This document shows, in pieces, positions 5,490 to 30,290 of a stretch of 30,290 nt of DNA (within the stretch, counting starts at the first letter, position 1; each line of letters begins with the position of its first letter). This stretch comes from a virus. The notes below the pieces were generated by a model, which saw only the letters and a list, made by a program, of their open reading frames with translations, ran no database searches and was not told the origin of the DNA. Where the stretch lies: positions 1 through 30,290 of IMG/VR virus record IMGVR_UViG_3300018083_000096; one strand, given 5' to 3'. The position numbers were made by a program, and so were the translations under genes.

Positions 5490-6215
5490 TCAGTTCCTCT
5501 CGTTCATCAGAACCATATCAGGAACAATATCATTACCATGGCCACCAGCTGCTTGAGCAGATTCCTCCTCAATCTCGCGCCAAATATTATCGTAAGCTTG
5601 TTTCCAGAATTCAATCCGAGGATCGTCCTTCAACCACGCTTCCGCAGCTAACAAAGCAGCGTACAAATAAGCGTCGTAATATTTCCCAGATGCCCAACTA
5701 TAATACCATGTAGGCGACCAAAGATGAGGCGGTGGTCCCTCCCACCATTCCATCACGGAACGATAGACGGTAACTCCTGGATTCGGACCAATCAACAGTC
5801 GCGGAGCTTGAACACTAGCAGTCGGGATATTTGGACTGTCAAATGAGTTGTGACCAACGATTGCGTAATGTCGTGGAGGGCCGATTTCATCCCCATACCG
5901 GCGCACAAGCTCTGTATGGGACAACAATTTCAATTCTGTGGTAGGAGAAGCACTATACCAAGAACCGCCCACCGGAGCAGCTCCTGGAATAAACCAGTGC
6001 TTAATTCCGAGAAAATTACCTCCCATCATGCTAGGAGGCGTGAGATAATCAGAATTGATCTGAAAATTCTCATTCATCCTTAAAGCGGCAGTAACTCGCA
6101 TCCGCCGACCAATAGCATTGTGGGCCGAAACCAAAAAATCATCGGCTCGCGAAGATAAATCAGCCCTATCCAAAAACCCGATGATGTCCGCAATCAGGTT
6201 TTGATAATCAGCCAT
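5490..6215 (-). CDS. head-tail adaptor protein, paralogue A
   Basis: The 241-aa protein starts at ATG 6213-6215, coupled to the upstream stop as TAATG. It shares the whole architecture of the next gene: an N-terminal 'LIADIIGFLDRADLSSRADDF', 'AHNAIGRRMRV', 'ELVRRYGDEIGPPRHYAIVG', and the C-terminal 'LYAALLAAEAWLKDDPR...WKQAYDNIWREIEEES'. It is longer in the middle through Pro/Trp/Tyr-rich loops (PPPHLWSPTWYYSWASGKYY). It resembles SU10-like adaptor proteins that form the ring below the portal. Its composition is more AT-rich than its partner. Two adaptors in a row could form two stacked rings, or one could be a specialised variant; the sequence does not decide this. Confidence 0.8.
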   Translation of the reverse strand: MADYQNLIADIIGFLDRADLSSRADDFLVSAHNAIGRRMRVTAALRMNENFQINSDYLTPPSMMGGNFLGIKHWFIPGAAPVGGSWYSASPTTELKLLSHTELVRRYGDEIGPPRHYAIVGHNSFDSPNIPTASVQAPRLLIGPNPGVTVYRSVMEWWEGPPPHLWSPTWYYSWASGKYYDAYLYAALLAAEAWLKDDPRIEFWKQAYDNIWREIEEESAQAAGGHGNDIVPDMVLMNERN

Positions 6216-15063: not shown

Positions 15064-15140
15064 AACGAGCGTTCGGGTCCCGGGCCGTTGTGCAACGCAG
15101 CAAACGAGCGTTCGCTAACCAAGGGGCGAACGAGCGTTCG
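15064..15140. promoter_or_regulatory. three repeated AACGAGCGTTCG boxes (GAAC-N4-GTTC type)
   Basis: Identical 12-base boxes occur at 15064-15075, 15103-15114 and 15129-15140. The third extends to CGAAC-GAGC-GTTCG, a full inverted repeat; the first is TGAAC-GAGC-GTTCG and the second AAAC-GAGC-GTTCG. Centre spacings are 39 and 26 bp. They lie just upstream of the first rightward promoter, so they look like operators. The layout resembles the Gram-positive-type LexA box CGAAC-N4-GTTCG, but identity of the regulator is unknown. Confidence 0.6.
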
Positions 15141-15211: not shown

Positions 15212-15240
15212 TTGTGCAGCGCCCCCGGCTGTGTTATAAT
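15212..15240 (+). promoter_or_regulatory. promoter P1, sigma-70 type with extended -10
   Basis: TTGTGC (15212-15217), 17-bp GC-rich spacer ending TGTGT, TATAAT (15235-15240). The same arrangement recurs at five other sites. The predicted transcript starts near 15247. It drives the gene at 15314 and the two small genes after it. Confidence 0.85.
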
Positions 15241-15313: not shown

Positions 15314-15721
15314 ATGAGCAAGCGCAACCGCACGACCGAGCAAGCCACCCAACCGATCGACGCGCCGGTTCAGCCGATCGAGCAACCGACCGAACAGGTC
15401 GCCGCCCCGATTCCCAGCCGGTCGATCGTCCCGGTTGAGTACCGCAAGGCGATGGCCGCCGCTTCGAAGGCCGACCCGGTTCGGTCCGCCGCGAAGACCG
15501 CCCGGGGCAACGCGGTGGTCGACAACGGGGATCCCGTTGCCGCCCGCCTCCGGGGTCAGCCGCTTGACGCGACCTGGGCGTTGGCGACCGAGGCGATGGG
15601 CGAATCGACCGTCCAGCTGCTGAAGGTCCGCTACGAGAAGCTGAACGTGGGCCAGATCCGGATGAACGTCGGCAACCGGATCCGGGCGATGATCAAGGAC
15701 GGTACCTTCGTCCTGAAGTAA
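15314..15721 (+). CDS. small protein with KLNVG-RMN-GN-IR domain (paralogue 1)
   Basis: The 135-aa protein starts at ATG 15314 with TAGGAG upstream; longer frames upstream lie before the transcript start. The N-terminus (1-40) is Gln/Pro/Thr-rich and disordered. Residues 54-135 form a domain shared with the protein at 19757-20359: 'KTARGNAVVDNGDPVAARLRG', an Ala-rich helix, then 'VRYEKLNVGQIRMNVGNRIRAMIK'. It is the first gene on the rightward side after P1, and has a GC-rich codon bias as for strong expression. The function is unknown. Its basic helix and conserved Asn/Arg suggest nucleic acid binding, which is an inference only. Confidence 0.85.
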   Translation: MSKRNRTTEQATQPIDAPVQPIEQPTEQVAAPIPSRSIVPVEYRKAMAAASKADPVRSAAKTARGNAVVDNGDPVAARLRGQPLDATWALATEAMGESTVQLLKVRYEKLNVGQIRMNVGNRIRAMIKDGTFVLK

Positions 15722-15728
15722 CGAACCC

Positions 15729-15752
15729 CCGGGGCGGCGCGAGCCGCCCCGG
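15729..15752 (+). terminator. intercistronic hairpin with GCGA loop
   Basis: A 10-bp perfect stem (CCGGGGCGGC / GCCGCCCCGG) closed by a GNRA-type GCGA loop, followed by TTCCC. Without a U-tract, it is more likely an mRNA 3'-end protection or partial terminator element behind a highly expressed gene. Confidence 0.6.
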
Positions 15753-15777
15753 TTCCCAACGAGCTAAGGAGATTGAC

Positions 15778-16023
15778 ATGACCAGGAAATACGCCGTAGC
15801 GTTGGTTTGGGCCGAAGCAGGCGACCCGATCCCGACCGTCGAGTTCGTGGAAGCAAATTCGCCCAAGGAGGCAGCCGAAGCAGCGATTTCGGTCTACGAA
15901 CCGACCAGCGATTGGGACGTTGATAAGTGGGACGCGAAGCCGATCCCGCCCGAACAACCCGACCCGATGTCGTTCAAGATCGAAGAAGTCGGCGTGTACT
16001 TGACCGTCAAGGAGATCGAGTGA
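15778..16023 (+). CDS. small acidic protein of unknown function
   Basis: The 81-aa protein starts at ATG 15778 with AAGGAG nine bases upstream. It is compact and acidic, with a strand-rich start (KYAVALVWAEAGDPIPTVEFVEA), a helix (SPKEAAEAAISVYE) and a C-terminal strand (FKIEEVGVYLTV). The order strand-helix-strand is a ferredoxin-like small alpha/beta pattern. It overlaps the next gene as TGATG. No family is recognised. It may be a phage-encoded modulator, given its early position. Confidence 0.75.
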   Translation: MTRKYAVALVWAEAGDPIPTVEFVEANSPKEAAEAAISVYEPTSDWDVDKWDAKPIPPEQPDPMSFKIEEVGVYLTVKEIE

Positions 16024-16193
16024 TGCCCCAGTTCACTGCGGTCCTGTTCGTAACGATCAACGCCGATTTCCCGACTCAGGAGGCGTTCGAAGCCAAGATC
16101 GGGGACATCCTGGAAACCGAACAGAACAACTGGGACAGCAACCCGTTTGATCTGGACAACAGCAAGGTTTCCATCCAAGTGCAAATCGCCTAA
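16023..16193 (+). CDS. small protein of unknown function, coupled
   Basis: The 56-aa protein starts at ATG 16023 within the TGATG junction. It has a beta-strand start (FTAVLFVTINADF), a helix (TQEAFEAKIGDILETEQNNW), and a final strand (KVSIQVQIA). The pattern parallels that of the preceding gene, so the two may be distant relatives or partners. It ends before a large non-coding stretch and a hairpin. Confidence 0.7.
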   Translation: MPQFTAVLFVTINADFPTQEAFEAKIGDILETEQNNWDSNPFDLDNSKVSIQVQIA

Positions 16194-16215
16194 GTCAACC
16201 GCAGTTCGTAGTCCA

Positions 16216-16242
16216 GCGCCCGGGGGCAGTTGACCCGGGCGC
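16216..16242 (+). terminator. terminator-like hairpin
   Basis: A perfect 9-bp stem (GCGCCCGGG / CCCGGGCGC) with a 9-base loop lies 23 bases after the stop of the last gene in the P1 unit. The downstream sequence is ATCTGTATTCGT, T-rich but not a strong U-tract. It probably ends or trims the P1 transcript. Confidence 0.55.
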
Positions 16243-16256
16243 ATCTGTATTCGTCA

Positions 16257-16310
16257 GTTGACTTTGGTTCGTGGGTTGACTTGTCACGGGGCGTTGACTT
16301 GCGTCCGCTT
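16257..16310. repeat. iteron-like array, 18-bp period
   Basis: GTTGACTT occurs at 16257, 16275 and 16293, exactly 18 bp apart, and GTTGAC also at 16229. Inverse copies (GTCAAC) occur at 16194-16199 and 16340-16345. Evenly spaced direct repeats of this size are typical of protein-binding iterons at origins or operators. Confidence 0.6.
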
Positions 16311-16391
16311 TACGTCAGGCACTCGGCCCACCAAAGCAGGTCAACCGACCGAATCCGGCACTTACTGCCCCGATTGACATTCCTCTCCTCG

Positions 16392-16403
16392 TACGTGCAC
16401 GTA
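16392..16403. repeat. 12-bp perfect palindrome
   Basis: TACGTGCACGTA is a perfect palindrome within the non-coding region; a candidate dimer-protein binding site. Confidence 0.45.
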
Positions 16404-16486
16404 TACCACGTAGACGCACGGGGATGTCGGTCGTCGGAGACAGTTTATATAGATAGTTCCCCGGACAGCACGCATACTTGCAGACC

Positions 16487-16510
16487 GTAGCGGCGTAGCG
16501 GCGTAGCGGG
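16487..16510. repeat. three tandem 8-bp repeats
   Basis: GTAGCGGC-GTAGCGGC-GTAGCGGG runs without gaps. Short tandem repeats can be slippage products or binding sites. No gene overlaps. Confidence 0.5.
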
Positions 16511-16518
16511 GGGTCAGC

Positions 16519-16534
16519 CTGTCGCCGACGACAG
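16519..16534. repeat. inverted repeat CTGTCG-N4-CGACAG
   Basis: A 6-bp arm inverted repeat with centre CCGA. As a formal pattern it also fits CTGT-N8-ACAG (Gram-negative LexA box), but the GC-rich centre argues against that; it could also be a small hairpin. Confidence 0.4.
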
Positions 16535-16644
16535 ACACCGCCGATATCCCCCCTATCCGGCCATATTTCACTGACCTGCCTTCCATTGCTTCGTCTCGCC
16601 ATGGGTCTTGCGTGCTGACCCCGGGCGTGGACGCGGCCTATCGG

Positions 16645-16660
16645 GTTAGTGATCACTAAC
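16645..16660. repeat. 16-bp perfect palindrome (operator candidate)
   Basis: GTTAGTGATCACTAAC is perfectly symmetrical and AT-richer than its surroundings. It resembles operators of phage repressors (Cro/CI type in style). It lies about 170 bases upstream of promoter P2. Confidence 0.55.
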
Positions 16661-16708
16661 TGGGTTTCGCATCCCCTTCGTGTCCAGGCGGTAGACTGGT
16701 CTGTCTTT

Positions 16709-16722
16709 GTGTAGCGCTACAC
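16709..16722. repeat. 14-bp perfect palindrome
   Basis: GTGTAGCGCTACAC is perfectly symmetrical. A half-site GCTACAC recurs downstream at about 16792-16798 before P2, so it may be one of a pair of operators for P2. Confidence 0.5.
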
Positions 16723-16827
16723 GCCAATCTTGGACGCAACATCTAGTCGTCTCTGACCCTATATCAGCCCTTCCTCTCACTGGAACTACGACGCTACACC
16801 CAAATGTCAAGCATGGAGCAATAGATC

Positions 16828-16856
16828 TTGTGCCGTCGGCCCCGGTGTGTTATAAT
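16828..16856 (+). promoter_or_regulatory. promoter P2 with upstream CAATAGATC element
   Basis: TTGTGC (16828-16833), 17-bp spacer with CCCCGG and TGTGT, TATAAT (16851-16856). The preceding CAATAGATC also occurs before P3 and P5. The transcript should start near 16863. It drives the cluster of small genes to 19666. Confidence 0.87.
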
Positions 16857-16864
16857 AAGCGCGT

Positions 16865-16881
16865 GGTGGGGAGTGCCCACC
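16865..16881 (+). promoter_or_regulatory. 5' leader hairpin after P2
   Basis: GGTGGG, loop GAGTG, CCCACC at the predicted transcript start. The hairpin after P3 has the same form (GGTGGG-N5-CCCGCC) with a compensating base-pair change. Confidence 0.7.
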
Positions 16882-16899
16882 CACAAAAGGAGATAAACG

Positions 16900-17073
16900 A
16901 TGCGCCGCTCGTTCAAGATTCAAATAGAGTTTCCCCCGGGCTATAACCCCGAACTCGCGCTCAACACGCTGCAGGGGTATGTCTTCGACTTTCCAGTGCC
17001 TGGGGTTGATGATCAAGTGGTCGCCTGTGAAGTGCGCTTTGTCAAGATCCTCTCCCCGCAGTTCCCGGGGTGA
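16900..17073 (+). CDS. small protein of unknown function (57 aa)
   Basis: Starts at ATG 16900 with AAGGAG upstream, following the P2 leader hairpin. MRRSFKIQIEFPPGYNPELA continues into 'NTLQGYVFDFPVPGVDDQVVACEVRFVKILSPQFPG'. Two strands and a Cys are visible, no known domain. The stop overlaps the next start as TGATG. It is the first gene of the P2 unit, so it is probably expressed early. The start is supported by the RBS and coupling, and the frame is free of overlap on either strand. Confidence 0.75.
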   Translation: MRRSFKIQIEFPPGYNPELALNTLQGYVFDFPVPGVDDQVVACEVRFVKILSPQFPG

Positions 17074-17453
17074 TGCTAATGAACAAGGAATCGACGACTA
17101 CGACGGTAATCCTTGATTACCTGAGGCACGTTGATGACTTCAAAACAACCGGGGAAGTGACGCGTTACACGGCGCGTCTTTACCCCGGGACACCGTTCGC
17201 CATCGTGCACAACCGAGTACAAGCTGGCCTTCATCACCTGAAGCACCGCAATGCTGTGGACTTCATGCGGTGCGACGGTAGGCTTTTCTGGTATGCGCGC
17301 CCAATTGGCGATGACAACAGGACCCGTCAAGTTACCGAGCGAGTGCCTGAGTCAAAGCCCCGCAAAACCCACTCCCGTAAGAAACGCGACCCGTTGACAC
17401 GTGATGAGCAATACCGGGGCATCCTCGACATCAAAGGAGATAAACGTGGCTAG
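17073..17453 (+). CDS. small winged-helix-like protein
   Basis: The 126-aa protein starts at ATG 17073 (TGATG coupling); an in-frame ATG at 17079 and a GTG at 17070 are alternatives. Residues 10-78 fit a winged helix: 'TVILDYLRHVDDFKTTGEVTRYTARLYP', a recognition-like helix 'AIVHNRVQAGLHHLKHRNAV', and a wing 'CDGRLFWYARP'. The tail is basic (KPRKTHSRKKRD). This composition suggests a DNA-binding regulator. The target is unknown, but operator-like sites lie upstream of P1 and P2. No identified family. Its stop lies in the start of the next gene. Confidence 0.72.
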   Translation: MLMNKESTTTTVILDYLRHVDDFKTTGEVTRYTARLYPGTPFAIVHNRVQAGLHHLKHRNAVDFMRCDGRLFWYARPIGDDNRTRQVTERVPESKPRKTHSRKKRDPLTRDEQYRGILDIKGDKRG

Positions 17454-17655
17454 AGCTTTCCCGCAAGTAACACTCGAAGGATTCGTTGACACGTACGGGC
17501 TTGCACGCGTGATCCGCGAGCTTTCAACGATATGTGACGTCAAGGCGGAACACATCCTCACGAACTGGCAGGACGAGAATAACGCAAAGACGTGGACGCG
17601 TTCGGGTGCCGATCTGGCAACCCTGGCCAACAAGATCGCGGCGAGGCGGCAATGA
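17446..17655 (+). CDS. small protein of unknown function (69 aa)
   Basis: Starts at GTG 17446 with AAAGGAG upstream; the start overlaps the previous gene by 8 bases. 'VTLEGFVDTYGLARVIRELSTICDVKAEHI' then 'GADLATLANKIAARRQ' are helical. No domain is recognised. It overlaps the next gene as ATGA. It is typical of the small phage takeover proteins in this kind of cluster. Confidence 0.72.
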   Translation: MARAFPQVTLEGFVDTYGLARVIRELSTICDVKAEHILTNWQDENNAKTWTRSGADLATLANKIAARRQ

Positions 17656-17867
17656 CAAAAATCCTGGACCCGACGGTTTATAGGGCAATCGTGATCTGCA
17701 ACGCCCTTACGCTGTATGCAAAAACGGGCATCAAGGCGAACACCGCGTACACGCCAACAGCAATGATGCGTGCCGCCACAGAAATCACGGGCAAGAAGTT
17801 CAAGGCCCGGGCGTACATGGAAGCAGCCGCCGCGCTGCGCGAATGGACCAAGGAGCAGTGTAAATGA
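17652..17867 (+). CDS. small helical protein of unknown function (71 aa)
   Basis: ATG 17652 overlaps the previous stop as ATGA. The protein is helical and basic: 'TVYRAIVICNALTLYAKTGIKANTAYTPTAMMRAATEITGKKFKARAYMEAAAALREW'. It resembles in style phage proteins of unknown function that share the pattern of a surface helix and TPTAMM..A loop, but I do not recognise a family. The next gene starts inside its stop (ATGA). Confidence 0.75.
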   Translation: MTKILDPTVYRAIVICNALTLYAKTGIKANTAYTPTAMMRAATEITGKKFKARAYMEAAAALREWTKEQCK

Positions 17868-18157
17868 TCATGACAATGTTCTACGTTGATGATTTCGGCG
17901 GCCACGAAGAAAAGATCGTGGTGGACTTCCCACCCGAACACTTCCAACCCATGCTCGTGCCGCAGGTTTTGCTGCGTAAATGGCTCGAGGAAAGCCTCGG
18001 GGACGATGGGTCTGGCAACATCGATGATTGCATGACAACGCACACGATTGACGCGGTGGTCCATGCAAGCCCGCATACTTGCGTGCTGGTTGGCACGTAC
18101 GAAGAAATGGCCCGCGTGCACTGGTCCCTGTTCGTCACACTCAACAAGCTGCCGTAA
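17864..18157 (+). CDS. small acidic protein of unknown function (97 aa)
   Basis: ATG 17864 overlaps the previous stop as ATGA, with GGAG upstream. The protein is acidic and mixed alpha/beta: 'MTMFYVDDFGGHEEKIVVDFPPEHFQPM', then 'TIDAVVHASPHTCVLVGTYEEMARVHWSLF'. No domain is recognised. The stop overlaps the next start as TAATG. Confidence 0.72.
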   Translation: MIMTMFYVDDFGGHEEKIVVDFPPEHFQPMLVPQVLLRKWLEESLGDDGSGNIDDCMTTHTIDAVVHASPHTCVLVGTYEEMARVHWSLFVTLNKLP

Positions 18158-18693
18158 TGTTCAACGCCGAGTACGAGAAGCGCAAGAATGCTTATTATCG
18201 GGCGCTTCTCGACTCGATTTCGCTCGCGAAACACATTCACAACATCGACCCCTTCCCGACACCTTTTATGGAGTCAACAATGACATTCGCCCTAAGCCGT
18301 AGTGAAATGATCGTCCGCATCCGGATGCTCGAAGAGGAAAACAATCGTCTCAATACGAGCCTTGGCGAGCACGAGGGAATCATCCGGGACTTGAGGCACG
18401 AGCTGAAGTGCCAGGACGAGCTGCTTGGCAAGAATATGGTCTTGAAAGGCGAGTTGATCGCGGCCAACGAGCGCCAGATGAAGACCATCAACATTCTGCG
18501 CGAGGAACTCCGCCTTGCCCGCATGGACCAGGAAATGGCCACGGATGCGCCAGCCGCCGTTGACGATGCGTTCAAGGAGCCGGTTGCCCACCCCACCACG
18601 CACTTGCGGTTCGTAAACGGGCGTCTGCAGCAACTGTGGCAAGATGACCGGGGCAACGAACAGTGGGAAATGGTCGAATCATGCATGACGTAG
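18157..18693 (+). CDS. coiled-coil protein of unknown function
   Basis: The 178-aa protein starts at ATG 18157 (TAATG coupling). A second in-frame ATG at 18280 has a better RBS (GGAG), so a shorter form may be the main product. A central long coiled coil (residues about 50-130: 'IVRIRMLEEENNRLNTSLGE', 'REELRLARMDQEM') is followed by 'LRFVNGRLQQLWQDDRGNEQWEMV'. Function unknown. Confidence 0.7.
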   Translation: MFNAEYEKRKNAYYRALLDSISLAKHIHNIDPFPTPFMESTMTFALSRSEMIVRIRMLEEENNRLNTSLGEHEGIIRDLRHELKCQDELLGKNMVLKGELIAANERQMKTINILREELRLARMDQEMATDAPAAVDDAFKEPVAHPTTHLRFVNGRLQQLWQDDRGNEQWEMVESCMT

Positions 18694-18818
18694 CGTGGTT
18701 CTGGATATTCGTAATATGGGTGGTCGGGTTCGGCACTTGGGGATTCGGCCTGTTGTGTGAACTGATTGACTGGTGGAGCGCCAAATGCGCAAGGAACCGA
18801 TCGGCATCGACGAAGTAA
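18681..18818 (+). CDS. tiny Trp-rich membrane protein (45 aa)
   Basis: Frame from ATG 18681 overlaps the end of the coiled-coil gene and the start of the next. 'VAWFWIFVIWVVGFGTWGFG' plus 'LLCELIDWW' is one long hydrophobic segment, so a single membrane helix is likely, followed by a basic tail. No clear RBS is visible. It is worth listing because such small membrane proteins are common in phage early regions and are usually missed. Confidence 0.55.
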   Translation: MHDVAWFWIFVIWVVGFGTWGFGLLCELIDWWSAKCARNRSASTK

Positions 18819-19276
18819 TACACGCCCTGCTTGGGCAAAAGGAAACGCGTGAAGATATGCTGCGCCGCGTCTATTCGGACCTGTTGCACGCACAGGTTGA
18901 GCGCGCAGTTGGCGACATGTTCGGGGAGCGCACAAAGTCGCCCGGGTATGGCGATCTCAAAGTGCGGGAGGCGCACGCATTCGAGGAGGAAATCGACTCG
19001 GCTGTGCACGCGTACGTTGACGGTAACGGATTCTTCGAATGGTTCGGCAAGCACGAGTTCCACATCGAGGAGATCCGCAAGTTCACGACTGACCAAGCAA
19101 TCCGGGTGACACAGGCAACCCTGGAAGACGCGAGCACCAAGCCCGGGAAAATGGCACGCGCAGCAAACGACGAGCTTGTGGAATTCGCACACGAGCAAGC
19201 TGTTGAAATCGTCGAGGATGTCGTAAATGAGATGGGCATTCTGTCGTTGATCCGTAGGAGGTCGAGTGAGCAATGA
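18785..19276 (+). CDS. small helical protein of unknown function (163 aa)
   Basis: Starts at ATG 18785 with GGAG six bases upstream; a GTG at 18773 is weaker. Acidic/basic alternating helices: 'MLRRVYSDLLHAQVERAVGD', 'EIDSAVHAYVDGNGFFEWFG', 'FHIEEIRKFTTDQAIRVTQATL'. No known domain is recognised. The stop lies after the start of the next gene. Confidence 0.75.
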   Translation: MRKEPIGIDEVIHALLGQKETREDMLRRVYSDLLHAQVERAVGDMFGERTKSPGYGDLKVREAHAFEEEIDSAVHAYVDGNGFFEWFGKHEFHIEEIRKFTTDQAIRVTQATLEDASTKPGKMARAANDELVEFAHEQAVEIVEDVVNEMGILSLIRRRSSEQ

Positions 19277-19463
19277 ACGTCTGGTAACACTGATCTGGGA
19301 CGAGGAAATCGTCACGGGTCCCAAACAGGGGGAAAAGACCACGGTCCGCCACCCCGGCTGCTTTATGGTACTTGCTGAAGTCGCGTGCATGAAGCAGAAC
19401 CTGTCAACCACCAACAGCAAAGGAGAGCCTATCGTCGCGTCCAACTTTCGGATCGAGCAATGA
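19266..19463 (+). CDS. small protein of unknown function (65 aa)
   Basis: Starts at GTG 19266 with AGGAGG four bases upstream, overlapping the previous gene. 'RLVTLIWDEEIVTGPKQGE' and 'CFMVLAEVACMKQNLSTTNS' suggest strands and a short helix. No family recognised. The stop overlaps the next start as ATGA. Confidence 0.7.
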   Translation: MSNERLVTLIWDEEIVTGPKQGEKTTVRHPGCFMVLAEVACMKQNLSTTNSKGEPIVASNFRIEQ

Positions 19464-19666
19464 GAAAGCTGCGCTGTTTACTGGGCTGGCACGGGCCGTA
19501 TTACACATCTAACATCAAATGTATCGGACGGTATTCCAGGGCATTCAAGCACGGGATGCGCGTTTGCCCGTTTTGCCAAACCCAGTGGCGCAATTACGGC
19601 ACGCTTGACCAGTGGCGTGTTATTCCACCGGACATAAGAGACATTGACTGGATGAAGAATCAATAG
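19460..19666 (+). CDS. small Cys/His protein of unknown function (68 aa)
   Basis: ATG 19460 overlaps the previous stop as ATGA. C5, C22 and a CPFC pair near residue 41 ('MRVCPFCQTQW') could bind zinc; the arrangement is C-x16-C...CxxC. The stop codon is part of the CAATAG element of promoter P3. Confidence 0.7.
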   Translation: MRKLRCLLGWHGPYYTSNIKCIGRYSRAFKHGMRVCPFCQTQWRNYGTLDQWRVIPPDIRDIDWMKNQ

Positions 19667-19669
19667 ATC

Positions 19670-19698
19670 TTGTGCCCTGTCGCGCCCTGTGGTATAAT
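19670..19698 (+). promoter_or_regulatory. promoter P3
   Basis: CAATAGATC, TTGTGC (19670-19675), 17-bp spacer, TATAAT (19693-19698) preceded by TGTGG. A hairpin (GGTGGG-GCACT-CCCGCC, 19707-19723) follows at about +3. It drives the gene at 19757. Confidence 0.87.
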
Positions 19699-19706
19699 CG
19701 GGGTGT

Positions 19707-19723
19707 GGTGGGGCACTCCCGCC
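19707..19723 (+). promoter_or_regulatory. 5' leader hairpin after P3
   Basis: GGTGGG, 5-base loop, CCCGCC with one G-U pair. Compared with P2, the same stem is kept by a T-A to T-G change. This is support for a functional RNA structure. Confidence 0.65.
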
Positions 19724-19756
19724 GCAATGACGAACTTCCGACAAGGAGATTTAACG

Positions 19757-20359
19757 ATGAAGACCGGTGACAAGGTGATGTACAACGAAAAGGCCGCAAC
19801 TGTCGTGGCCGTCAAGGGCAAGTTCATCTCGATCCAAGCGGGCAACAAGGAACTGACCGTGGATCAAGCTGTTCTGACCGAAATTCCGGCGGACACGCCG
19901 ATCAACAAACTCGGAAAGGTAGGGATAGGCTCCGTGATTCCCAAGGACGCACGCGCACGTTACATCGTGCACAAGAATGTCAAGACCGCCGGCGGAAAGT
20001 CGCCGTCCATCGACAACAACGATGATGTCGCAACGATCCTGCGCGGTGTCAGCATCGAAGACGCCTACGGAATCGCCGTCAAGCAGCTGAAGGACAAGGG
20101 CGTCGAAACGTCGGTCGAGGCGCTCAAGGCCAAGTACTCGAAGCTGAACGTCGGCATGCAGCGCATGAACATGGGCAACCTGATCCGGGGCGCGGGCAAG
20201 GAGCTGATCGCGAAGATGAAGAAGGACGAGGCGAAGGCTAAGCGCGACGAAGCTGCCGCCGCTGCCAAGGACGCGAAGGCGGAAGCAAAGGCCGCACCGG
20301 CCCCCGCGAAGCCCGCCCCCAAGGCGAAGCCCGCTGCGTCGAAGCAAGCGACTGCCTAA
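19757..20359 (+). CDS. paralogue 2: SH3/KOW-like N-terminus, shared domain and H1-like tail
   Basis: The 200-aa protein starts at ATG 19757 with AAGGAG upstream. Residues 1-44 (GDKVMYNEKAATVVAVKGKFISIQAG...) look like a small KOW/SH3-type barrel. Residues 75-156 are homologous to the protein at 15314 ('SIDNNDDVATILRG', 'KAKYSKLNVGMQRMNMGNLIR'). Residues 157-200 are a Lys/Ala/Pro-rich tail (APAPAKPAPKAKPAASKQA) like histone H1 tails. The combination suggests nucleic acid binding or compaction. Abundant expression is likely, with its own promoter and leader hairpin. The exact job is unknown. Confidence 0.87.
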   Translation: MKTGDKVMYNEKAATVVAVKGKFISIQAGNKELTVDQAVLTEIPADTPINKLGKVGIGSVIPKDARARYIVHKNVKTAGGKSPSIDNNDDVATILRGVSIEDAYGIAVKQLKDKGVETSVEALKAKYSKLNVGMQRMNMGNLIRGAGKELIAKMKKDEAKAKRDEAAAAAKDAKAEAKAAPAPAKPAPKAKPAASKQATA

Positions 20360-21554: not shown

Positions 21555-23123
21555 ATGCCGGTTGGCCAACTCGACGTTGAGCGCTTCGCAGCGCTATTCG
21601 ACGGGAATGAACGATCGCACGGAATCTGGAACCCACGTAATGGGAGGATGCACACAGACCCCAAACAAGCAGCACTGATCGATTACGAGGAGCACGTAAA
21701 TGGTAAACGCGGGCTTGGTATCGTCCCGATTCGGGATGACGGTCGTTGCATGTTTGGCGCTATTGATATTGATAATCATGGCAGCAAAGTTGATCTCCCT
21801 ATCGAGGAGGCCGAAGCCGCCCGTGAAAGAAATCGGCTCCCTATTGTTCTGTGCCGCTCTAAGTCTGGGGGTATTCATGGGTACCTCTTTCTCACTAGTC
21901 CTACTCCTGCAACGCTAGTTCGCACCAAGCTCACCCAATACGCGCAGGCACTTGGGTACCCAAATGCCGAGATCTTCCCGAAACAGGGCAAGGTTGGACA
22001 GGACGCGGACGGGAAACAACTCTTTGGTAACTGGATCAATCTGCCGTATTACGACGCAGAGGCATCAACACGCTACTCGGTCGACAAAGAGGGCGAACGG
22101 CTCAGCTTCACGGAGTTCCTGGATCTGGCCGAATCGCGCCTCACGCCTGAGGAGGCTCTGTCGGGGGTCCTCGGGACCCATCCGGAGGCCCCACCGTGCA
22201 TCCAGAGGCTCATGGACGAGGGCATAGATAGCGGGGTTCGGAATGAGGGGCTATACAATGTCGTGGTCTACTTCCGCAAGGCGTTTCCGGATGACTATCG
22301 AGACAGGGCATTCGACGCTAATAACCAATTCGTTAACCCGCCTTTACCAATGGTTGAAGCAAGGCGGACTGTCGCCTCAGCGGGCCGCCGCGATTATAAA
22401 TATAAGTGTGATGAAGAGCCGATCAAATCCAGGTGCAATCGTGCAGTATGTTTGCAGCGACGATTTGGAGTTGGATCAACCGATCAACATGACGGTAAAC
22501 AAGCCAACTCCGCGCTCCCCGCCTTCACAGAGTTGACCAAGTTCCTGACCGAGCCGATTCGGTGGTCGGTAAAGATGGACGGAGTGGTGGTTGATAACCT
22601 CGAAACAGAGGATATCTTGCGGTACAGCCGGATGGAGCGTATAATAATTGAGAGATTGGGGCGCGGTGCGCCAATGATCAAGGAGCGGGACTGGAGGGAG
22701 ATTCTCAACGTACTGTTGGATGGCCACAAAGTCGAGGCCGTCCCGGATGACGCAAGTACCCCGGGCATCATGCGGGCGCGGCTGGTGGAATTCGTGAAGA
22801 AAGCAGCGTTTACGGGCGGGATGGATGAATTCGATGACGACCGGTCGGTCCTATTGCGCGGACTTCCGATTCTGTACCGAGTGCCCGAAGGCACCAGTAC
22901 CCGGGAGTACGTGGCATTCCGTGGCCAGGACTTCATCGACCACCTGCGCCGCACAAAGTCGGAGGATATTCGCGGAACGAACCTATGGTTCGCCATCCGG
23001 GGGCTTGGCATCGAGCAGCACAATATCCGCGTCGGCACGCAAGTGCTCAAGGCGTGGTGTATCCCGATGAATGAAGAATGGCGACAAGCCATCAAGCCTG
23101 CGATATTTGGGAGGGAATTTTAA
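21555..23123 (+). CDS. AEP-type (TOTE-like) DNA primase with Cys cluster
   Basis: The 522-aa protein starts at ATG 21555. The archaeo-eukaryotic primase signature is present: GAIDIDNHG (D71, D73, metal ligands), then KSGGIHGYLF (residues 103-112; conserved basic and His108), and 'NWINLPYYD' (residue 167 D). A second region (211-306) 'PPCIQRLMDEGIDSGVRNEGLYNVVVYFRKAFPD...CDEEPIKSRCNRAVCLQR' contains four Cys (215, 285, 294, 299). This resembles the Cys-containing domain that follows TOTE-type primases and could bind a metal or Fe-S cluster; it is not identified as a known fold. The remaining 200 residues are alpha-helical and charged. Its role would be primer synthesis for the phage polymerase. 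Lies with SNF2 and UvrD helicases and PolA. Confidence 0.85.
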   Translation: MPVGQLDVERFAALFDGNERSHGIWNPRNGRMHTDPKQAALIDYEEHVNGKRGLGIVPIRDDGRCMFGAIDIDNHGSKVDLPIEEAEAARERNRLPIVLCRSKSGGIHGYLFLTSPTPATLVRTKLTQYAQALGYPNAEIFPKQGKVGQDADGKQLFGNWINLPYYDAEASTRYSVDKEGERLSFTEFLDLAESRLTPEEALSGVLGTHPEAPPCIQRLMDEGIDSGVRNEGLYNVVVYFRKAFPDDYRDRAFDANNQFVNPPLPMVEARRTVASAGRRDYKYKCDEEPIKSRCNRAVCLQRRFGVGSTDQHDGKQANSALPAFTELTKFLTEPIRWSVKMDGVVVDNLETEDILRYSRMERIIIERLGRGAPMIKERDWREILNVLLDGHKVEAVPDDASTPGIMRARLVEFVKKAAFTGGMDEFDDDRSVLLRGLPILYRVPEGTSTREYVAFRGQDFIDHLRRTKSEDIRGTNLWFAIRGLGIEQHNIRVGTQVLKAWCIPMNEEWRQAIKPAIFGREF

Positions 23124-23444
23124 ATGAGCGAAGACGAGTTCCAGGAAGACGCCGACGCCATGCGATTCGAGGCGGGGTTGCAGAATTTTGGGCAGCACAT
23201 TCTCCGTATCCTGGATTCGGAGGACAAGCCCATCAAGATGCCTCTGTTCATCAACTGGTTAGCCGAAACACTGGCGAACCTTCTAGCGCAACGTTACAGA
23301 GAGGAGGATGTTGAGAATCTACTGGCGCAGTTTAACTGCGAGGTAATCCGGATGGAAGAAACTGTCCGAGAACTGGTAAAACAGCGGCGTAACGACGCGA
23401 TCAGCCGCGCACTCCACGAATCCGTCAATAAGGCGAAACACTAA
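23124..23444 (+). CDS. small helical protein between primase and helicase (106 aa)
   Basis: ATG 23124 directly after the primase stop, with GAGGGAA upstream. Helical and charged ('FINWLAETLANLLAQRYREEDVENLLAQF', 'MEETVRELVKQRRNDAISRAL'). No family recognised. Its stop overlaps the helicase start as TAATG. A replication accessory role is likely from context only. Confidence 0.78.
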   Translation: MSEDEFQEDADAMRFEAGLQNFGQHILRILDSEDKPIKMPLFINWLAETLANLLAQRYREEDVENLLAQFNCEVIRMEETVRELVKQRRNDAISRALHESVNKAKH

Positions 23445-25150
23445 TGTACGCAGAAAACGCAAACCTGACTCTAGATTACAGCGATCGCACCAACCGATTC
23501 CACTTTTCGTGTCCGCCGTGGATGAATGATCTGGCCCGGGCGATACCCAACAGAAGGTGGTCGAACAAGGAAAAGGTCTGGACCGCCCCCGCGTTGCGTG
23601 CCAACGCTCGCTATTTCCAGGACTTGCGGGGCGTCAAGATCACCGAGGCGGCGCTCGAAAAGATCAAAGAGTGTCAAGCAGCGGCGCACCGCGTCAAGAA
23701 CATGTTCCCGCCGTGGTACCAGTTTAAGACGAAGCCGCGCCCGTACCAGTTGAAAGCACTGAACAAGACGTACGGGAACAAGGTTGGTGGGTTCATCATG
23801 GGGATGGGCACCGGCAAGACAAAAACGTATATCGACCTTGCCTGTGCAATGCGGATCGAAAATCTGATAGACCGCACGTTGGTGGTCTGCCCCATGTCAA
23901 TCCGGAACGAGTGGAAAGGGCAGCTGGAGTTGCACGCCTCGGTCCCGGTTGATGCGCACTTCCTGGACACGAGCAAGGAGTGGGATTTCGACCGGTGGCT
24001 CGACCGGAAACACGACTACAAGTGGCTGGTCGTCGCCGTTGAGTCCCTGAGCGTAGGCAAAGCGGCCCGCCTCTGCGAGCAATTCCTACTCGGGTCCACC
24101 AAGTGCTCGATGGTGATTGACGAGTCTACCAAGATCAAGAATCACGAGTCCAAGCGGAACGAGGCGTGCATGTTGTTGGCGACCCGGGCTGAGTACAGGC
24201 ACATTCTCACCGGCACCCCGCTCGCAAATGGACCGATGGACTATTACGCACAATTCGAGTTTCTCGACACCCAAATCATCGGGGTCGGGGACTATTACAG
24301 CTTCCGCAACTTGTACGCCGTAATGGGCGGGTACGAGGGCAAACAGATCGTCGGGTACACCAAGCTCGAGGAATTGGCGGCCATCATCGAGCCGTTCATC
24401 TACGAGGTCAGCAAAGAGGAGGCGCTGCCCGACCTGCCACCAAAGACCTATCAGCAACGGTTCGTCCAGTTGACCGCCGAGCAGAAGGAACTCTACACCC
24501 GGGTGCGCAAGCTGCCTCTGGTCAAGACCCCGCAGGGCGAAATCGAGCTGCAAAACGTGATGGTCCGCACGTTGCGCCTATCGGAGCTTACCAGTGGATT
24601 CTACACGGAAGCGGTTAGTGAAGACGGCGGTGAGCCGGAGTTTGTCAAACAGTGGTTCCCCAAAAGCCCCAAGTTGGTCGAGCTACTCGATGTACTTGAA
24701 GAAGCGGGCGACAAGCCAACCATCATCTGGACCCGATTCAAGCCAGAACTCAAGCTCATCAAAGATGCCCTCCGAGAGCGTTATGGAAATGACAAATTTG
24801 TTGAGTATTCGGGCGACGTCTCTGAGGATGATCGTGCAATCAACAAACAGCGATACCTGTCCGGGGATGCTCAATTCTTCGTGGCAACGCCGCAATCCGG
24901 GGGGATGGGCCTCAATCTGCAAGTGACCGAGCTAGAAGTCTTCATGTCAAATAGCTACAACTACCTGGAGCGAGTGCAAGCCGAGGATCGGGGGCACCGA
25001 ATGGGCACCACCAAGCCAGTGCTCATCGTCGACATTCTTGCGGAGGGAACCGTAAACGAGCACGAGCTAAAGGCGCTGCAGAACAAGCACGGGGTCAGCG
25101 AGTACATGAGGGAACTGATCCGGTCGAAGCGAGTTTCGGAAGTCCTGTAA
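23444..25150 (+). CDS. SNF2-like SF2 helicase / DNA translocase
   Basis: The 568-aa protein has an N-terminal region (residues 10-60, 'NRFHFSCPPWMNDLARAIPNRRWSNKEKVW') like the HARP-type substrate-recognition module that precedes many phage SNF2 helicases. Motifs: Q-like 'PRPYQLKAL' (99-106), Walker A GMGTGKT (120-126), motif Ib/II 'VIDESTKIK' (224-232, DEST in place of DEAH), motif III LTGTP (255-259), motif V region 'ATPQSGGMGLNLQ', motif VI 'QAEDRGHRMGTT' (512-523). It should translocate on or unwind DNA in replication or recombination. No nuclease domain is fused. Its last gene before promoter P5. Confidence 0.92.
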   Translation: MYAENANLTLDYSDRTNRFHFSCPPWMNDLARAIPNRRWSNKEKVWTAPALRANARYFQDLRGVKITEAALEKIKECQAAAHRVKNMFPPWYQFKTKPRPYQLKALNKTYGNKVGGFIMGMGTGKTKTYIDLACAMRIENLIDRTLVVCPMSIRNEWKGQLELHASVPVDAHFLDTSKEWDFDRWLDRKHDYKWLVVAVESLSVGKAARLCEQFLLGSTKCSMVIDESTKIKNHESKRNEACMLLATRAEYRHILTGTPLANGPMDYYAQFEFLDTQIIGVGDYYSFRNLYAVMGGYEGKQIVGYTKLEELAAIIEPFIYEVSKEEALPDLPPKTYQQRFVQLTAEQKELYTRVRKLPLVKTPQGEIELQNVMVRTLRLSELTSGFYTEAVSEDGGEPEFVKQWFPKSPKLVELLDVLEEAGDKPTIIWTRFKPELKLIKDALRERYGNDKFVEYSGDVSEDDRAINKQRYLSGDAQFFVATPQSGGMGLNLQVTELEVFMSNSYNYLERVQAEDRGHRMGTTKPVLIVDILAEGTVNEHELKALQNKHGVSEYMRELIRSKRVSEVL

Positions 25151-25162
25151 GAGCAATAGATC

Positions 25163-25191
25163 TTGTGCCCCGGTATGGGGTGTGCTATAAT
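25163..25191 (+). promoter_or_regulatory. promoter P5
   Basis: CAATAGATC, TTGTGC (25163-25168), 17-bp spacer, TATAAT (25186-25191) with TGTGC before it. The transcript should start about 25198. No leader hairpin is visible. It drives genes at 25216-28581. Confidence 0.87.
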
Positions 25192-26360: not shown

Positions 26361-27137
26361 ATGGCAACGAAAAAGACGCAACTGGCAACGGTCCCCGCAG
26401 CGCAGGATGACGGTGGATTCATGACGGAACGCCCGGAGTACCTCAAGGACCAACCGGGGAACAGAGGGTCGGAGGGCGTCCAGTCCGCCGACTTGATCAT
26501 CCCCCGGTTGGAGCTGGTGCAATCGACCTCGCCGGTCCGCGATGAAACGGACCCCGCGTGGATCGAAGGTGCCACCGATGGCGACCTGTACAACACCGTT
26601 TCCCGACAGCTGTACGGAAAGCAGGCGTTTGTCGTGCCCGTGTATTACCGCAAGGAGTGGAACGTCTGGGCCAAACGCAAGAAGGGTGAAGGCCCGAAAG
26701 AGGACATCGGCGATTTCCAGGGGTCGTTCGCGACCGAGGAAGAGGCAGAAGCAAAGCGCGTAACCCTGCCCGAGGCTGATTGCTACGACGTCATCGAAAC
26801 CCCCACCAACTTCTGTCTGTTGGTTACGGGTCCCGGTAAGTCGGAAGAGATCATCGTGTCGATGCCTCGCACGAAGTTCAAGGTCGCGAAGAAGTGGAAT
26901 TCGCTGATTCGCATGGCGGAGGGTGACCGTTTCAGCCGCGTGTACAAGTTGGAACCGGCCCGTGAAGAAAACGCGCACGGGAAGTTCTTCAACTTTGCGG
27001 TGAGCATGGTCGGCTTCCCCTCCGAGGACCTGTTCCACAAGGCGGAAAAGCTGTACGCGATGATCAGCGCGGGCGATCTGAAGTTCCGCGCCGACGTTGA
27101 CGAACCCATCAACAAGGGTGGCGATACCGAGTACTAG
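26361..27137 (+). CDS. conserved phage protein, candidate ssDNA-binding
   Basis: ATG 26361 with AAAGGAG upstream. 258 residues. A disordered start (about 1-40) leads to 'SADLIIPRLELVQSTSPVRDE', then a beta-rich region ('LYGKQAFVVPVYYRKEWNVWAKRKKGEG...', 'TPTNFCLLVTGPGKSEEIIVSMPRTKFKVAKKWNSLI'). It belongs to a family common in phages, often annotated as hypothetical or as ssDNA-binding. A short acidic-ended C-terminus fits an SSB-like protein, and placement among replication genes supports this, but it is not proven. Confidence 0.82.
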   Translation: MATKKTQLATVPAAQDDGGFMTERPEYLKDQPGNRGSEGVQSADLIIPRLELVQSTSPVRDETDPAWIEGATDGDLYNTVSRQLYGKQAFVVPVYYRKEWNVWAKRKKGEGPKEDIGDFQGSFATEEEAEAKRVTLPEADCYDVIETPTNFCLLVTGPGKSEEIIVSMPRTKFKVAKKWNSLIRMAEGDRFSRVYKLEPAREENAHGKFFNFAVSMVGFPSEDLFHKAEKLYAMISAGDLKFRADVDEPINKGGDTEY

Positions 27138-27150
27138 CCTGCTGAAGCAC

Positions 27151-27174
27151 CCCGCCCTGGGAAACCGGGGCGGG
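27151..27174 (+). terminator. hairpin before the UvrD-like gene
   Basis: CCCGCCC, 10-base loop, GGGCGGG followed by TTAACG. GC-rich stem of 7 bp, weak T-run. It could attenuate or stabilise the transcript ahead of the helicase. Confidence 0.5.
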
Positions 27175-27189
27175 TTAACGAGAGGAACG

Positions 27190-28581
27190 ATGAAAGCCTA
27201 CGCGATTTACGGACCCCCGGGGACCGGTAAGTCTCACAGCTTAATTGAGATTGCGAGCACCTTCGCGCCGGAAACCAAATACCAGTTTGTTTCTCACACG
27301 CGGGCCGCCGCACGAGAATTAGTCGGGCGGCTAGGAGATCCGGATAAAGGGTGCACCCTGCACTCGCTGTGTTACCGATTGACTGACGTCTCGCCCCGGT
27401 CTTTGATCGATCGCGAGAAGCTCGAGGAGTTCACACAGAAAACGGGGATTCGCACCACTGGGGGCGACATTGATGATGGTATCATTCCGGAGGGGGACGA
27501 ATACCTGCAAGTCATCGACTACGCTCGCAACTCCTTGAAGCCGGTTGACCAGTGCTATGATGCAATGGGCCGCCCGGGGAACCACGCACGATTCACCAGC
27601 TTCCAGCAATCGTTCAAAAACTGGAAGGGCATGTACGGGTACGTCGATTTCACCGATATGTTGGAGCGGTACGTAAACCGCCCCCGCAACCCGAATCTTC
27701 ACACACTGTTGATCGACGAAGCCCAGGACCTGTCGCCGCTACAGTGGAAGGTGGTAGAAGTGCTCAGCCAGTACCTGCAAGTAATCTATATTGCCGGTGA
27801 CGACGACCAATCCATCTACGAATGGGGTGGGGCCGACCCCCAGGGAATGCCCCGATTTGAGGAGTTGCACAGTGCCCAACGAACCGTCCTCTCCCAATCC
27901 TTCCGTGTCCCCATTCGGGCACATGTTCTTGCTCAGTCAGTTATTCAACGGGTGCAAAGTCGGGTCGCGAAGTCTTATCTTCCTACCGACCAAACTGGCA
28001 GCATCATTAGAGTCGGAAGTATGGAGCAAATTGATATCGATGGGAGCGAACATATCACAGTGCTCGCAAGGGACAATTATAAGTTACGGGAAATTGAGCG
28101 GGGATTACAGTCCCGAAGAATCCCCTACCATGTTGGTGGAAATCGAGGCCCCCTTCGAACAAAGTACGGAAGAGCCATGCGAAGCTACCGAAAGGTTGAA
28201 GCAGGTGAGCAGCTTACTCCGCAAGAGATCAAGAACCTCTACGAAGGGACGGACCCCAAAGCGAAAAGCCTAGTCGTCAATCGCGACTGGGCCGGTCTGA
28301 TCAAGCGGGGGTGGGTCGTGTCGATTCCCATGCCCACGCCACTGTTTGACTACTTCAACCACGTGGACCTGCTCAACGAGCCGAAGATCAAAATGTCCAC
28401 GATCCACGCCGCCAAGGGAACCGAGGCTGAGAACATCCTCATTTACCTGGGCCGGTCGCAGCGAATCATCGAGGCAGAGGCGATTAACCCCGACCCGGAA
28501 CACCGGCTGTTTTACGTCGCCGTCACGCGCACTTCCAATCGGCTGGCTATTGTGGATGGGTACGGAGGATACCGCCTGTAA
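27190..28581 (+). CDS. UvrD/PcrA-like SF1A helicase
   Basis: ATG 27190 with GAGAGGAACG upstream; 463 residues, shorter than typical UvrD (about 700). Motif I GPPGTGKS (8-15), motif Ia 'QFVSHTRAAARELVGRL', motif II LLIDEAQDLS (173-182), motif III AGDDDQSIYEWGGA (202-215), motif IV 'LSQSFRVP', motif V 'STIHAAKGTEAENILIYLG', motif VI 'EHRLFYVAVTRTSNRL'. 2B-like insertions are reduced. It should unwind DNA 3' to 5' during replication or recombination. It is the last gene of the P5 unit. Confidence 0.92.
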   Translation: MKAYAIYGPPGTGKSHSLIEIASTFAPETKYQFVSHTRAAARELVGRLGDPDKGCTLHSLCYRLTDVSPRSLIDREKLEEFTQKTGIRTTGGDIDDGIIPEGDEYLQVIDYARNSLKPVDQCYDAMGRPGNHARFTSFQQSFKNWKGMYGYVDFTDMLERYVNRPRNPNLHTLLIDEAQDLSPLQWKVVEVLSQYLQVIYIAGDDDQSIYEWGGADPQGMPRFEELHSAQRTVLSQSFRVPIRAHVLAQSVIQRVQSRVAKSYLPTDQTGSIIRVGSMEQIDIDGSEHITVLARDNYKLREIERGLQSRRIPYHVGGNRGPLRTKYGRAMRSYRKVEAGEQLTPQEIKNLYEGTDPKAKSLVVNRDWAGLIKRGWVVSIPMPTPLFDYFNHVDLLNEPKIKMSTIHAAKGTEAENILIYLGRSQRIIEAEAINPDPEHRLFYVAVTRTSNRLAIVDGYGGYRL

Positions 28582-28587
28582 TAGTAC

Positions 28588-28616
28588 TAGCGCCCCGGGT
28601 CCCGGTGTGGTATAAT
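28588..28616 (+). promoter_or_regulatory. promoter P6 (weak -35)
   Basis: TATAAT (28611-28616) with TGTGG before it, CCCCGGGTCCCGG spacer. The -35 is poor (TAGCGC at 17 bp). It sits directly behind the UvrD stop and drives the DNA polymerase. Confidence 0.72.
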
Positions 28617-28635: not shown

Positions 28636-30290
28636 ATGAGATTTCCGTCGTTGAGTGGGCAGCTAGTCTTCGCCGATACCGAAACCACGGGCCTCAGCTG
28701 GATTGAGGATTCCACGTTCGGGGTGTCGGTAAAGGTCGGGTTGGAGCAGCCCGCTGAGTATTACGACCTGCGAAAGACCCCACAGGCGATCGACTGGCTC
28801 AGGAACGAGCTGCCGTACGCCAAACGCTACATCAATCACAACGCGAAATTCGACTACCACTTCCTGCGGGAAGCCGGGGTTGACATGGACCGAGTGCCTG
28901 AGGTTGAGTGCACGATGGTCAACGCGGCGCTGATTGATGAACATAAGTACGAATATAACCTCGATGTCCTGTTGAAGGAGGCGGGGCTACCGGGGAAAGA
29001 GGACATCTGGAAGGAACTGGCCGCGATATTTGGCGGTGCGCCGACTTCCAAGGCACAGATCGGGAACCTATCACGCGCCCCGGTGGCGATCGCCGCAAAG
29101 TACGCCAATCGTGACGTTGACGGCACCGCGCAACTGTGGGCGTGGCAACAGGCAGAAATCACGCGGCAGGGCCTGGAGCGAATCGTGCACTTGGAGAGGC
29201 AAGTGCTCCCCGTCCTCGCTCGCATGGAATACCGGGGTGTCCGAGTCGACATCGAGAAAGCGGCCAGGGCAGTTATAAAATTCGACAAGTGGGCGATCGA
29301 CCTGCAACAACAGATCAACCAGATCGCGGGCAGGGATCTGAACGTCAACAGCAGCAAACAGATCATCGAGGTCCTCAAGCCAGAGAGACGCGCGGACGGC
29401 GCGTGGGTTCTCCAGGGGGCTATAGTCATACCCGCCACAGAAGGCGGTGCCCCGTCCGTGGGCGCGGAGACCCTACGCCGACTACCCGGGGACCTACCCG
29501 CAGCCATCCTGCGGCTGCGCAAAGTGATCAAGACGAGGGATACTTTCCTCAAGGGGCACATTCTCGGGCACCATGTTGGGGGAGTCATCCATTGTAACTA
29601 CAACCAAACGCGTGGCGACAACGAGCTTGGCACCGGTACCGGAAGGCTGAGCGTCAATGACCCCGCGCTTCAACAGATCCACAAACGGGACCCGGAACTC
29701 GCGTCAGTCGTGCGGGCCTGTTTCCTGCCGGATAAAGGGCAGGCTTGGTGCAGCGCCGACTGGGACCAAAAGGAATTCCGGTGGTTCGCCCACTTCGCGA
29801 AGAATCCCACCATCCTGGAAATGTACCGGAAGGATCCCAATACCGACTTCCACGCCGCCGTAGCGGAATTAACCGGCCTACCACGCAGTAACACACCCGG
29901 GATCAAGGGCAACGCCAAGCAGATCAATCTCGGGTTGGTATTCGGGATGGGGATGGGTCGACTGGCACTTGAGATGGGACTTCCGTACGAGGAAAGACAG
30001 GGCCGCCGGGGCAAATCCTATCTCGTGCCCGGGGTCGAAGCGGAACAGGTCTTCGAGAAATACCACCGAGCGGTGCCGGGGGTGAAGCAGCTGTTGGCTG
30101 ACGTTGACGCGGTTGCCTCCTCAAGGGGCTGGATCGAAACAGTCGGCGGGCGGCATATCCGGTTCCCACGGGGCGGCACCCATAAGGCAGCGGGCCTGTT
30201 ATTCCAGGGGTCCAGTGCCGATTGCATGAAGCAGAAAATGGTGGAGCTAGACAAGGAATTTGCGGGAACGGATACGGAATTGCTCCTGTC
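28636..30290 (+). CDS. family A DNA polymerase with 3'-5' exonuclease (C-terminus off edge)
   Basis: ATG 28636 with GGAGGA upstream; 551 residues seen. Exonuclease: FADTETTGL (D14, E16), INHNAKFDYHFL (66-77), YANRD (Y156, D160). Polymerase: template/fingers 'GTGRLSVNDPALQQI' (334-348), motif A WCSADWDQKEFRWF (371-384, D375 metal ligand, E380), motif B 'KGNAKQINLGLVFGMG' (424-439; K424, K428). The residue matching E. coli Pol I Phe762 is Leu432 and that matching Tyr766 is Phe436. 5'-3' exonuclease is absent, as in phage enzymes. Motif C (HDE) lies outside the window. It should replicate the phage genome with the nearby primase and helicases. Confidence 0.96.
   Translation, partial: MRFPSLSGQLVFADTETTGLSWIEDSTFGVSVKVGLEQPAEYYDLRKTPQAIDWLRNELPYAKRYINHNAKFDYHFLREAGVDMDRVPEVECTMVNAALIDEHKYEYNLDVLLKEAGLPGKEDIWKELAAIFGGAPTSKAQIGNLSRAPVAIAAKYANRDVDGTAQLWAWQQAEITRQGLERIVHLERQVLPVLARMEYRGVRVDIEKAARAVIKFDKWAIDLQQQINQIAGRDLNVNSSKQIIEVLKPERRADGAWVLQGAIVIPATEGGAPSVGAETLRRLPGDLPAAILRLRKVIKTRDTFLKGHILGHHVGGVIHCNYNQTRGDNELGTGTGRLSVNDPALQQIHKRDPELASVVRACFLPDKGQAWCSADWDQKEFRWFAHFAKNPTILEMYRKDPNTDFHAAVAELTGLPRSNTPGIKGNAKQINLGLVFGMGMGRLALEMGLPYEERQGRRGKSYLVPGVEAEQVFEKYHRAVPGVKQLLADVDAVASSRGWIETVGGRHIRFPRGGTHKAAGLLFQGSSADCMKQKMVELDKEFAGTDTELLL

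Follow-up and report, generated by a model that had tools for sequence, protein, structure and literature searches.

Z-phages replace adenine in their DNA with 2-aminoadenine (Z), and those of the phiVC8 type carry a Z gene set comprising PurZ, DatZ, MazZ, and DpoZ. Here, we analyze a 30,290-nucleotide stretch of viral DNA (the window; positions 1 to 30,290 of IMG/VR virus record IMGVR_UViG_3300018083_000096), which encodes two paralogous proteins with a shared domain that matches PHROG 8941 and is found in the same genomes, and in the same replication region, as the Z gene set; unlike the products of that set, the domain protein is neither an enzyme of nucleotide metabolism nor a polymerase. 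The domain is not mentioned in the Z-phage papers PMC12884076, PMC8342488, and PMC8599892, the papers that we searched on Z-phages name no dedicated DNA-binding protein, and literature searches returned no description of the domain family and no function, structure, or publication for PHROG 8941, a family not described before. The explanation that we favor, and hold to be on balance probable, is that these are small phage proteins, most of them basic, with a place in the replication programme of phiVC8-type Z-phages (those with PurZ and the DpoZ-2 polymerase) and that would bind the phage's own ZTGC DNA as nucleoid-like architectural proteins.

The open reading frames of the two proteins translate as described in an earlier, sequence-only reading of this DNA, and the common domain that it proposed is evident by BLASTP (75 residues aligned, 41% identity, E = 5e-15). 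The two genes are laid out as follows.

15314–15721, + strand: paralogue 1, 135 residues, pI 10.1, with an N-terminal extension and the shared domain (open reading frame translation, BLASTP, PHROG match)
15479–15694, + strand: shared domain of paralogue 1, about residues 56–127 (profile E = 3e-23, from a profile that contains the paralogue 1 sequence)
19757–20359, + strand: paralogue 2, 200 residues, pI 9.8, with an SH3/KOW-like domain, the shared domain, and a Lys/Ala/Pro tail (open reading frame translation, BLASTP, PHROG, AlphaFold2)
19757–19900, + strand: SH3/KOW-like N-terminal domain of paralogue 2, residues 1–48 (AlphaFold2, Foldseek)
19964–20206, + strand: shared domain of paralogue 2, about residues 70–150, predicted as two strands followed by four helices (BLASTP, profile, AlphaFold2)
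20207–20356, + strand: Lys/Ala/Pro-rich tail of paralogue 2 (AlphaFold2, composition)

The domain core spans about 65 to 80 residues with a nearly invariant series of D, A, L, Y, L, N, G, Q, R, M, N, G, N, and R; 15 columns are invariant across nine relatives, and both window proteins end the domain in Y-x-K-L-N-V-G-x-x-R-M-N-x-G-N-x-I-R, as the sequence-only reading had noticed. Profile searching places both proteins, over the shared domain, in the unannotated PHROG 8941 only (E = 4.1e-10 and 2.7e-8), and in no named family, related or unrelated. Scans of the window proteins against Pfam, NCBIfam, and PADLOC gave nothing significant, and a sequence profile search of the PDB with the shared domain gave no match; the named top matches of a Foldseek search against viral models are Z-phage and uncharacterized proteins.

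The SH3/KOW-like N terminus and the Lys/Ala/Pro tail are confined to the second protein, again in keeping with what had been read from the letters. The former is confidently modeled by AlphaFold2 as four strands at residues 6 to 36 (mean predicted local distance difference test score [pLDDT] of 89, about 93–96 in the strands), and its fold resembles Tudor, KOW, and Spt5 domains in the PDB at weak Foldseek E values of 0.04 to 0.3, none ≤0.001, with no KOW hit in Pfam; in contrast to NusG and Spt5, there is no NGN domain by Pfam, and paralogue 1 lacks the SH3-like module altogether. The tail, residues 151 to 200, is 76% Lys, Ala, and Pro, relative to a maximum of 62% among 6605 other 50-residue stretches tested in the proteins of the window; the model extends the last helix into its start and leaves the final 20 residues irregular. 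This composition is what recalls linker histone H1 and bacterial H1-like tails. However, there is no Pfam linker-histone match (PF00538, winged helix) at E ≤ 1, the predicted core of two strands and then four helices differs, the tail is present in only some family members, and six acidic residues stand among 13 basic ones.

A tblastn search of 50,697 phage records identified 57 that harbor the domain, with hosts exclusively in Vibrio, Acinetobacter, Alteromonas, Klebsiella, Providencia, Stenotrophomonas, Burkholderia, Salmonella, and Pseudomonas. An annotated adenylosuccinate synthetase–type gene (purZ) is present in six domain-positive phages, phiVC8, SH-Ab 15497, PMBT28, ZP6, Bm1, and K300, each having genes for a DNA polymerase and for a DatZ-type hydrolase nearby, and Stenotrophomonas phage BUCT555, also domain-positive, has a purZ detectable by profile. 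This linkage was examined for a subset of the 57 records and otherwise by per-genus counts from the domain and PurZ searches, which are 38 and 38 for Vibrio, 10 and 10 for Acinetobacter, 2 and 2 for Klebsiella, and 2 and 2 for Alteromonas. The domain was not found in S-2L, Ochrobactrum phage OH, PurZ0-type actinophages with PurA-like genes, Hiyaa, or MaF61; S-2L uses a PrimPol, and the PolA of OH lacks the DpoZ residues. The idea that every Z genome needs the domain is ruled out by S-2L, the PurZ0-type phages, and OH, and the domain therefore goes with the DpoZ-2 system, not with Z itself. The terminases of the window, phiVC8, and the SH-Ab/PMBT28/Kokobel2 group show no mutual BLAST matches, and Bm1 has myovirus-type baseplate genes; the domain therefore moves together with the replication module between structurally distinct lineages. 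In phiVC8, virion proteomics (PMC4802629) yielded four structural proteins, the domain protein not among them, in a survey too shallow to exclude it.

The same linkage is found in environmental phages. The domain profile retrieved 214 loci from IMG/VR, and among the records of the best 80 of these, PF00709 (the purZ/purA family) is present in 25 of the 25 that are at least 30 kb long, all 13 PF00709-negative records being shorter than 27 kb. Divergent domain members, used as query in a further search, brought in another 12 records ≥30 kb long, nine of them with PF00709, so that purZ/purA-family genes occur in 34 of 37 domain-positive contigs of this length. Two of the three negatives stop at or before the polA–purZ junction, one ending inside a DpoZ-like polymerase and one being shorter with the same domain genes; the third, G112, is taken up below. 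In the reverse direction, an alignment was used as query because a single PurZ protein found close relatives only, and the domain is present in 32 of 34 purZ-positive contigs of at least 30 kb. One exception is a 32.7-kb record with polA near one end; the other, G054 (locus L107), is a 119.9-kb phage contig with purZ and no PolA, the DNA of which must be copied by another polymerase. As controls, we took 50 records ≥30 kb long with PolA polymerases of other kinds; PF00709 lies above the cut-off in one of them, and the domain is found in none (Fisher p = 2e-19 for PF00709 in domain-positive versus control records and 4e-21 for the domain in purZ-positive versus control records, values that, given the non-independence of related records, overstate the evidence). 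PurZ/DpoZ-2 phages almost always carry the domain, a relationship overlooked in the sequence-only reading.

The window itself carries a replication module downstream of the two paralogues.

21555–23123, + strand: primase (AEP-TOTE and PriCT-1)
23444–25150, + strand: SNF2-like superfamily II helicase, part of this replication module
27097–28581, + strand: UvrD/PcrA-like helicase adjoining polA, an arrangement as in PMBT28 and SH-Ab 15497
28636–30288, + strand: family A DNA polymerase in the phiVC8-like DpoZ (DpoZ-2) clade, truncated at the window end (Pfam PF00476, residues, tree, neighborhood)

DpoZ enzymes of the phiVC8 clade are characterized by L455, F459, G548, and an insertion in helix O (PMC8599892). 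The window polymerase has equivalents of L455, F459, G548, and R440 as well as insertion 2, with Ser at the position of R161, and clusters with the DpoZ-2 enzymes (clade support 98/99). Among its closest relatives, 34 newly fetched IMG/VR loci, purZ directly follows polA in 30. The window very probably derives from a phiVC8-type Z-phage, with purZ predicted beyond its edge, because its polymerase is of the DpoZ-2 type and the relatives mostly have purZ next. The remaining four loci (L377–L380; records G377–G380) lack the shared domain, and a motif count finds Tyr in place of Phe at the steric gate of four polymerases, in agreement with these four; the two largest records (36–37 kb), scanned in full, contain no purZ and no datZ. 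These DpoZ-2-like sisters probably have ordinary DNA and would be useful for tracing the origin of Z selectivity. The replication region of the window further encodes a Pam3 gp34-like protein (26361–27137; PF23977, E = 3e-57), which also belongs to PHROG 2402, a family without function.

These associations could mean that the domain is a replication partner of DpoZ-2, a clamp-like accessory factor that contacts the polymerase or the primer–template and sets processivity or Z-over-A selectivity. Its distribution follows DpoZ-2 rather than Z chemistry, since it is missing from phages that combine purZ with PrimPol (S-2L) or an atypical PolA (OH) and from G054, which has purZ without PolA, and its absence alongside the Tyr-gate sisters is likewise what a polymerase partner would show. 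However, the domain genes are not beside polA, their separate promoters and the presence of one to three paralogues that differ in architecture point to a structural or regulatory role, and the restriction-enzyme homologue described next has no polymerase partner, so that we regard a replication partner as possible though unlikely.

A search of 84,980 genomes of bacteria and archaea returned only 10 matches to the domain. Five are alphaproteobacterial proteins with a BisI-family restriction nuclease as their C-terminal part (Eco15I, E = 2.5e-45; NhoI, E = 4e-36; PADLOC mREase_II; NhoI by Foldseek), and a divergent copy of the domain forms their N terminus.

L093, 6714–7517: BisI-type fusion
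L094, 9848–10681: BisI-type fusion
L095, 9893–10717: BisI-type fusion, adjoining Dcm methylase, Vsr, and EcoRII genes
L096, 9848–10702: BisI-type fusion
L097, 792–1601: BisI-type fusion

The N-terminal parts match a hidden Markov model (HMM) built from phage sequences only (E = 2e-12 to 5e-10), and hhalign pairs the phage domain with the fusion N terminus at 98.6% over 47 columns, mainly the C-terminal helical half. The phage proteins differ in having no nuclease domain (no PADLOC match for the window proteins). An AlphaFold2 model of one fusion is poor (pLDDT of 58), and its nuclease half is identified by sequence. The fusion is patchily distributed, turning up in a single genome among 201 in the order sampled. 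Separately, an 86-residue bacterial open reading frame (L353, 1477–1734) consists of the domain alone (phage-only HMM, E = 2e-8). The fusions are candidate modification-dependent enzymes, and a domain common to phage proteins and restriction enzymes would most simply bind DNA. Taken further, the domain might be a reader of 2-aminoadenine DNA, the invariant Asn/Gln/Arg helix of which senses the minor-groove 2-amino group; Z-phages would organize or express their genomes with this reader, and some bacteria would have joined it to a BisI-type nuclease against Z-phages. We hold this scenario to be improbable, and neither a reader of Z-DNA nor a Z-directed restriction enzyme was found in the papers searched.

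Across the family, the domain occurs alone or with short tails, and in some relatives it follows an N-terminal module, EIVxVNGGWTTIxxxDGxxKKVRNGELS. Long Lys/Ala-rich tails are found in phiVC8, K300, Bm1, and the window, and zinc-ribbon or C2H2-like segments accompany the domain in PMBT28, Kokobel2, and SH-Ab. Paralogues often number two or three per genome, with two to three in phiVC8, ZP6, K300, Bm1, and the window.

Each window paralogue follows its own promoter, as had been claimed from the letters. The motif, TTGTGC-N17-TATAAT, was located by motif scan and is perfect at four sites in the window, all on the + strand.

15212–15240, + strand: promoter of paralogue 1
16828–16856, + strand: further copy, preceding a small open reading frame
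19670–19698, + strand: promoter of paralogue 2
25163–25191, + strand: further copy
28588–28616, + strand: degenerate copy with two mismatches, preceding the polymerase

With up to two mismatches, there are six matches relative to 1.0 expected, a number reached in 0 of 100 shuffles. A generic sigma-70 scan of the window failed to detect these promoters, presumably because the −35 element is TTGTGC. The leader hairpins of the sequence-only reading find no support above chance level, their folding energies having z-scores of −1.3 and −0.75 relative to dinucleotide-shuffled sequence, and the high expression it proposed for the two genes can only be surmised. The divergent intergenic region upstream of the first early promoter contains, at 15064–15140, three exact copies of AACGAGCGTTCG with an inner inverted repeat, AACG-AG-CGTT (0.26 copies expected with up to one mismatch), which may be operator- or origin-like. 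Elsewhere, 4817–5488 and 5490–6215 encode tandem paralogous virion proteins (41% identity, E = 3e-49).

Early-type promoters of their own, together with the resemblance of the paralogue 2 N terminus to Spt5 KOW and Tudor domains, might suggest a transcription factor acting early, with its KOW/SH3 or zinc module contacting host RNA polymerase and aiding in melting or reading ZTGC DNA or in passing early terminators. However, the KOW module is missing from many members, paralogue 1 among them, and the best fold match reaches an E value of only 0.04; we consider this role quite unlikely. The domain could also be a passenger, an ordinary early gene co-inherited with the dpoZ–purZ module and with no Z-tied role, and its absence from other Z lineages does make it dispensable for Z genomes in general; the retention of two or more copies across phages with unrelated terminases, and its loss or absence in non-Z sisters, render this very unlikely. 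Least probable is counter-defence, in which the domain either masks phage DNA sites or acts in competition with modification-dependent restriction enzymes of the host that bear the same domain: the alphaproteobacterial BisI-type enzymes, one of them beside Dcm/Vsr/EcoRII genes, do provide such a counterpart, but the fusions are rare and known here from alphaproteobacteria only, whereas most cultured domain carriers infect gammaproteobacteria.

Several observations weigh against an architectural protein of the Z genome. Z-type phages with other polymerases (S-2L, OH, PurZ0 actinophages) lack the domain, and Z-DNA as such therefore needs none. The 63.9-kb, domain-positive contig G112 (loci L391–L394) has a DatZ-like gene with no purZ or polA found, an unexplained exception; the purZ query (A3) was built from domain-positive phages and favors that subclass; and co-inheritance of one module could yield the linkage without any Z-specific role. 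The window and its record stop inside polA, leaving the window itself without purZ, and a Foldseek search of the PDB gives no confident match for the core fold of the shared domain.

In the architectural model that we nonetheless favor, the proteins would be made from their own early-type promoters, the conserved H-L-N-x-G-x-Q-R-M-N-x-G-N-x-x-R helix would bind the ZTGC DNA of the phage, and the accessory modules (H1-like tail, SH3/KOW, zinc finger) would add affinity or contacts to the replication or transcription machinery, with the domain proteins serving the modified genome as architectural proteins of a nucleoid-like kind. We infer DNA binding from the basic charge, the H1-like tails, the SH3/KOW or zinc modules, and the homologous domain in BisI-family enzymes; a preference for Z over A would be speculative. 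The nucleoid or RNA-binding role suggested by the sequence-only reading is accordingly plausible as to DNA, nucleoid coating being one option among several, whereas RNA binding finds backing only in the SH3/KOW fold of one module.

Work on Z-phages has so far centered on making and incorporating Z, and how ZTGC DNA is organized, transcribed, and protected appears little studied. Found in nearly all PurZ/DpoZ-2 phages tested and not in the non-Z polymerase sisters, the domain is a specific candidate and also marks the genomes of this class of phages, and the BisI-type enzymes in which it recurs open another, independent way to its function. The domain may be a component so far missing from the picture of how Z-phages handle their unusual genome.

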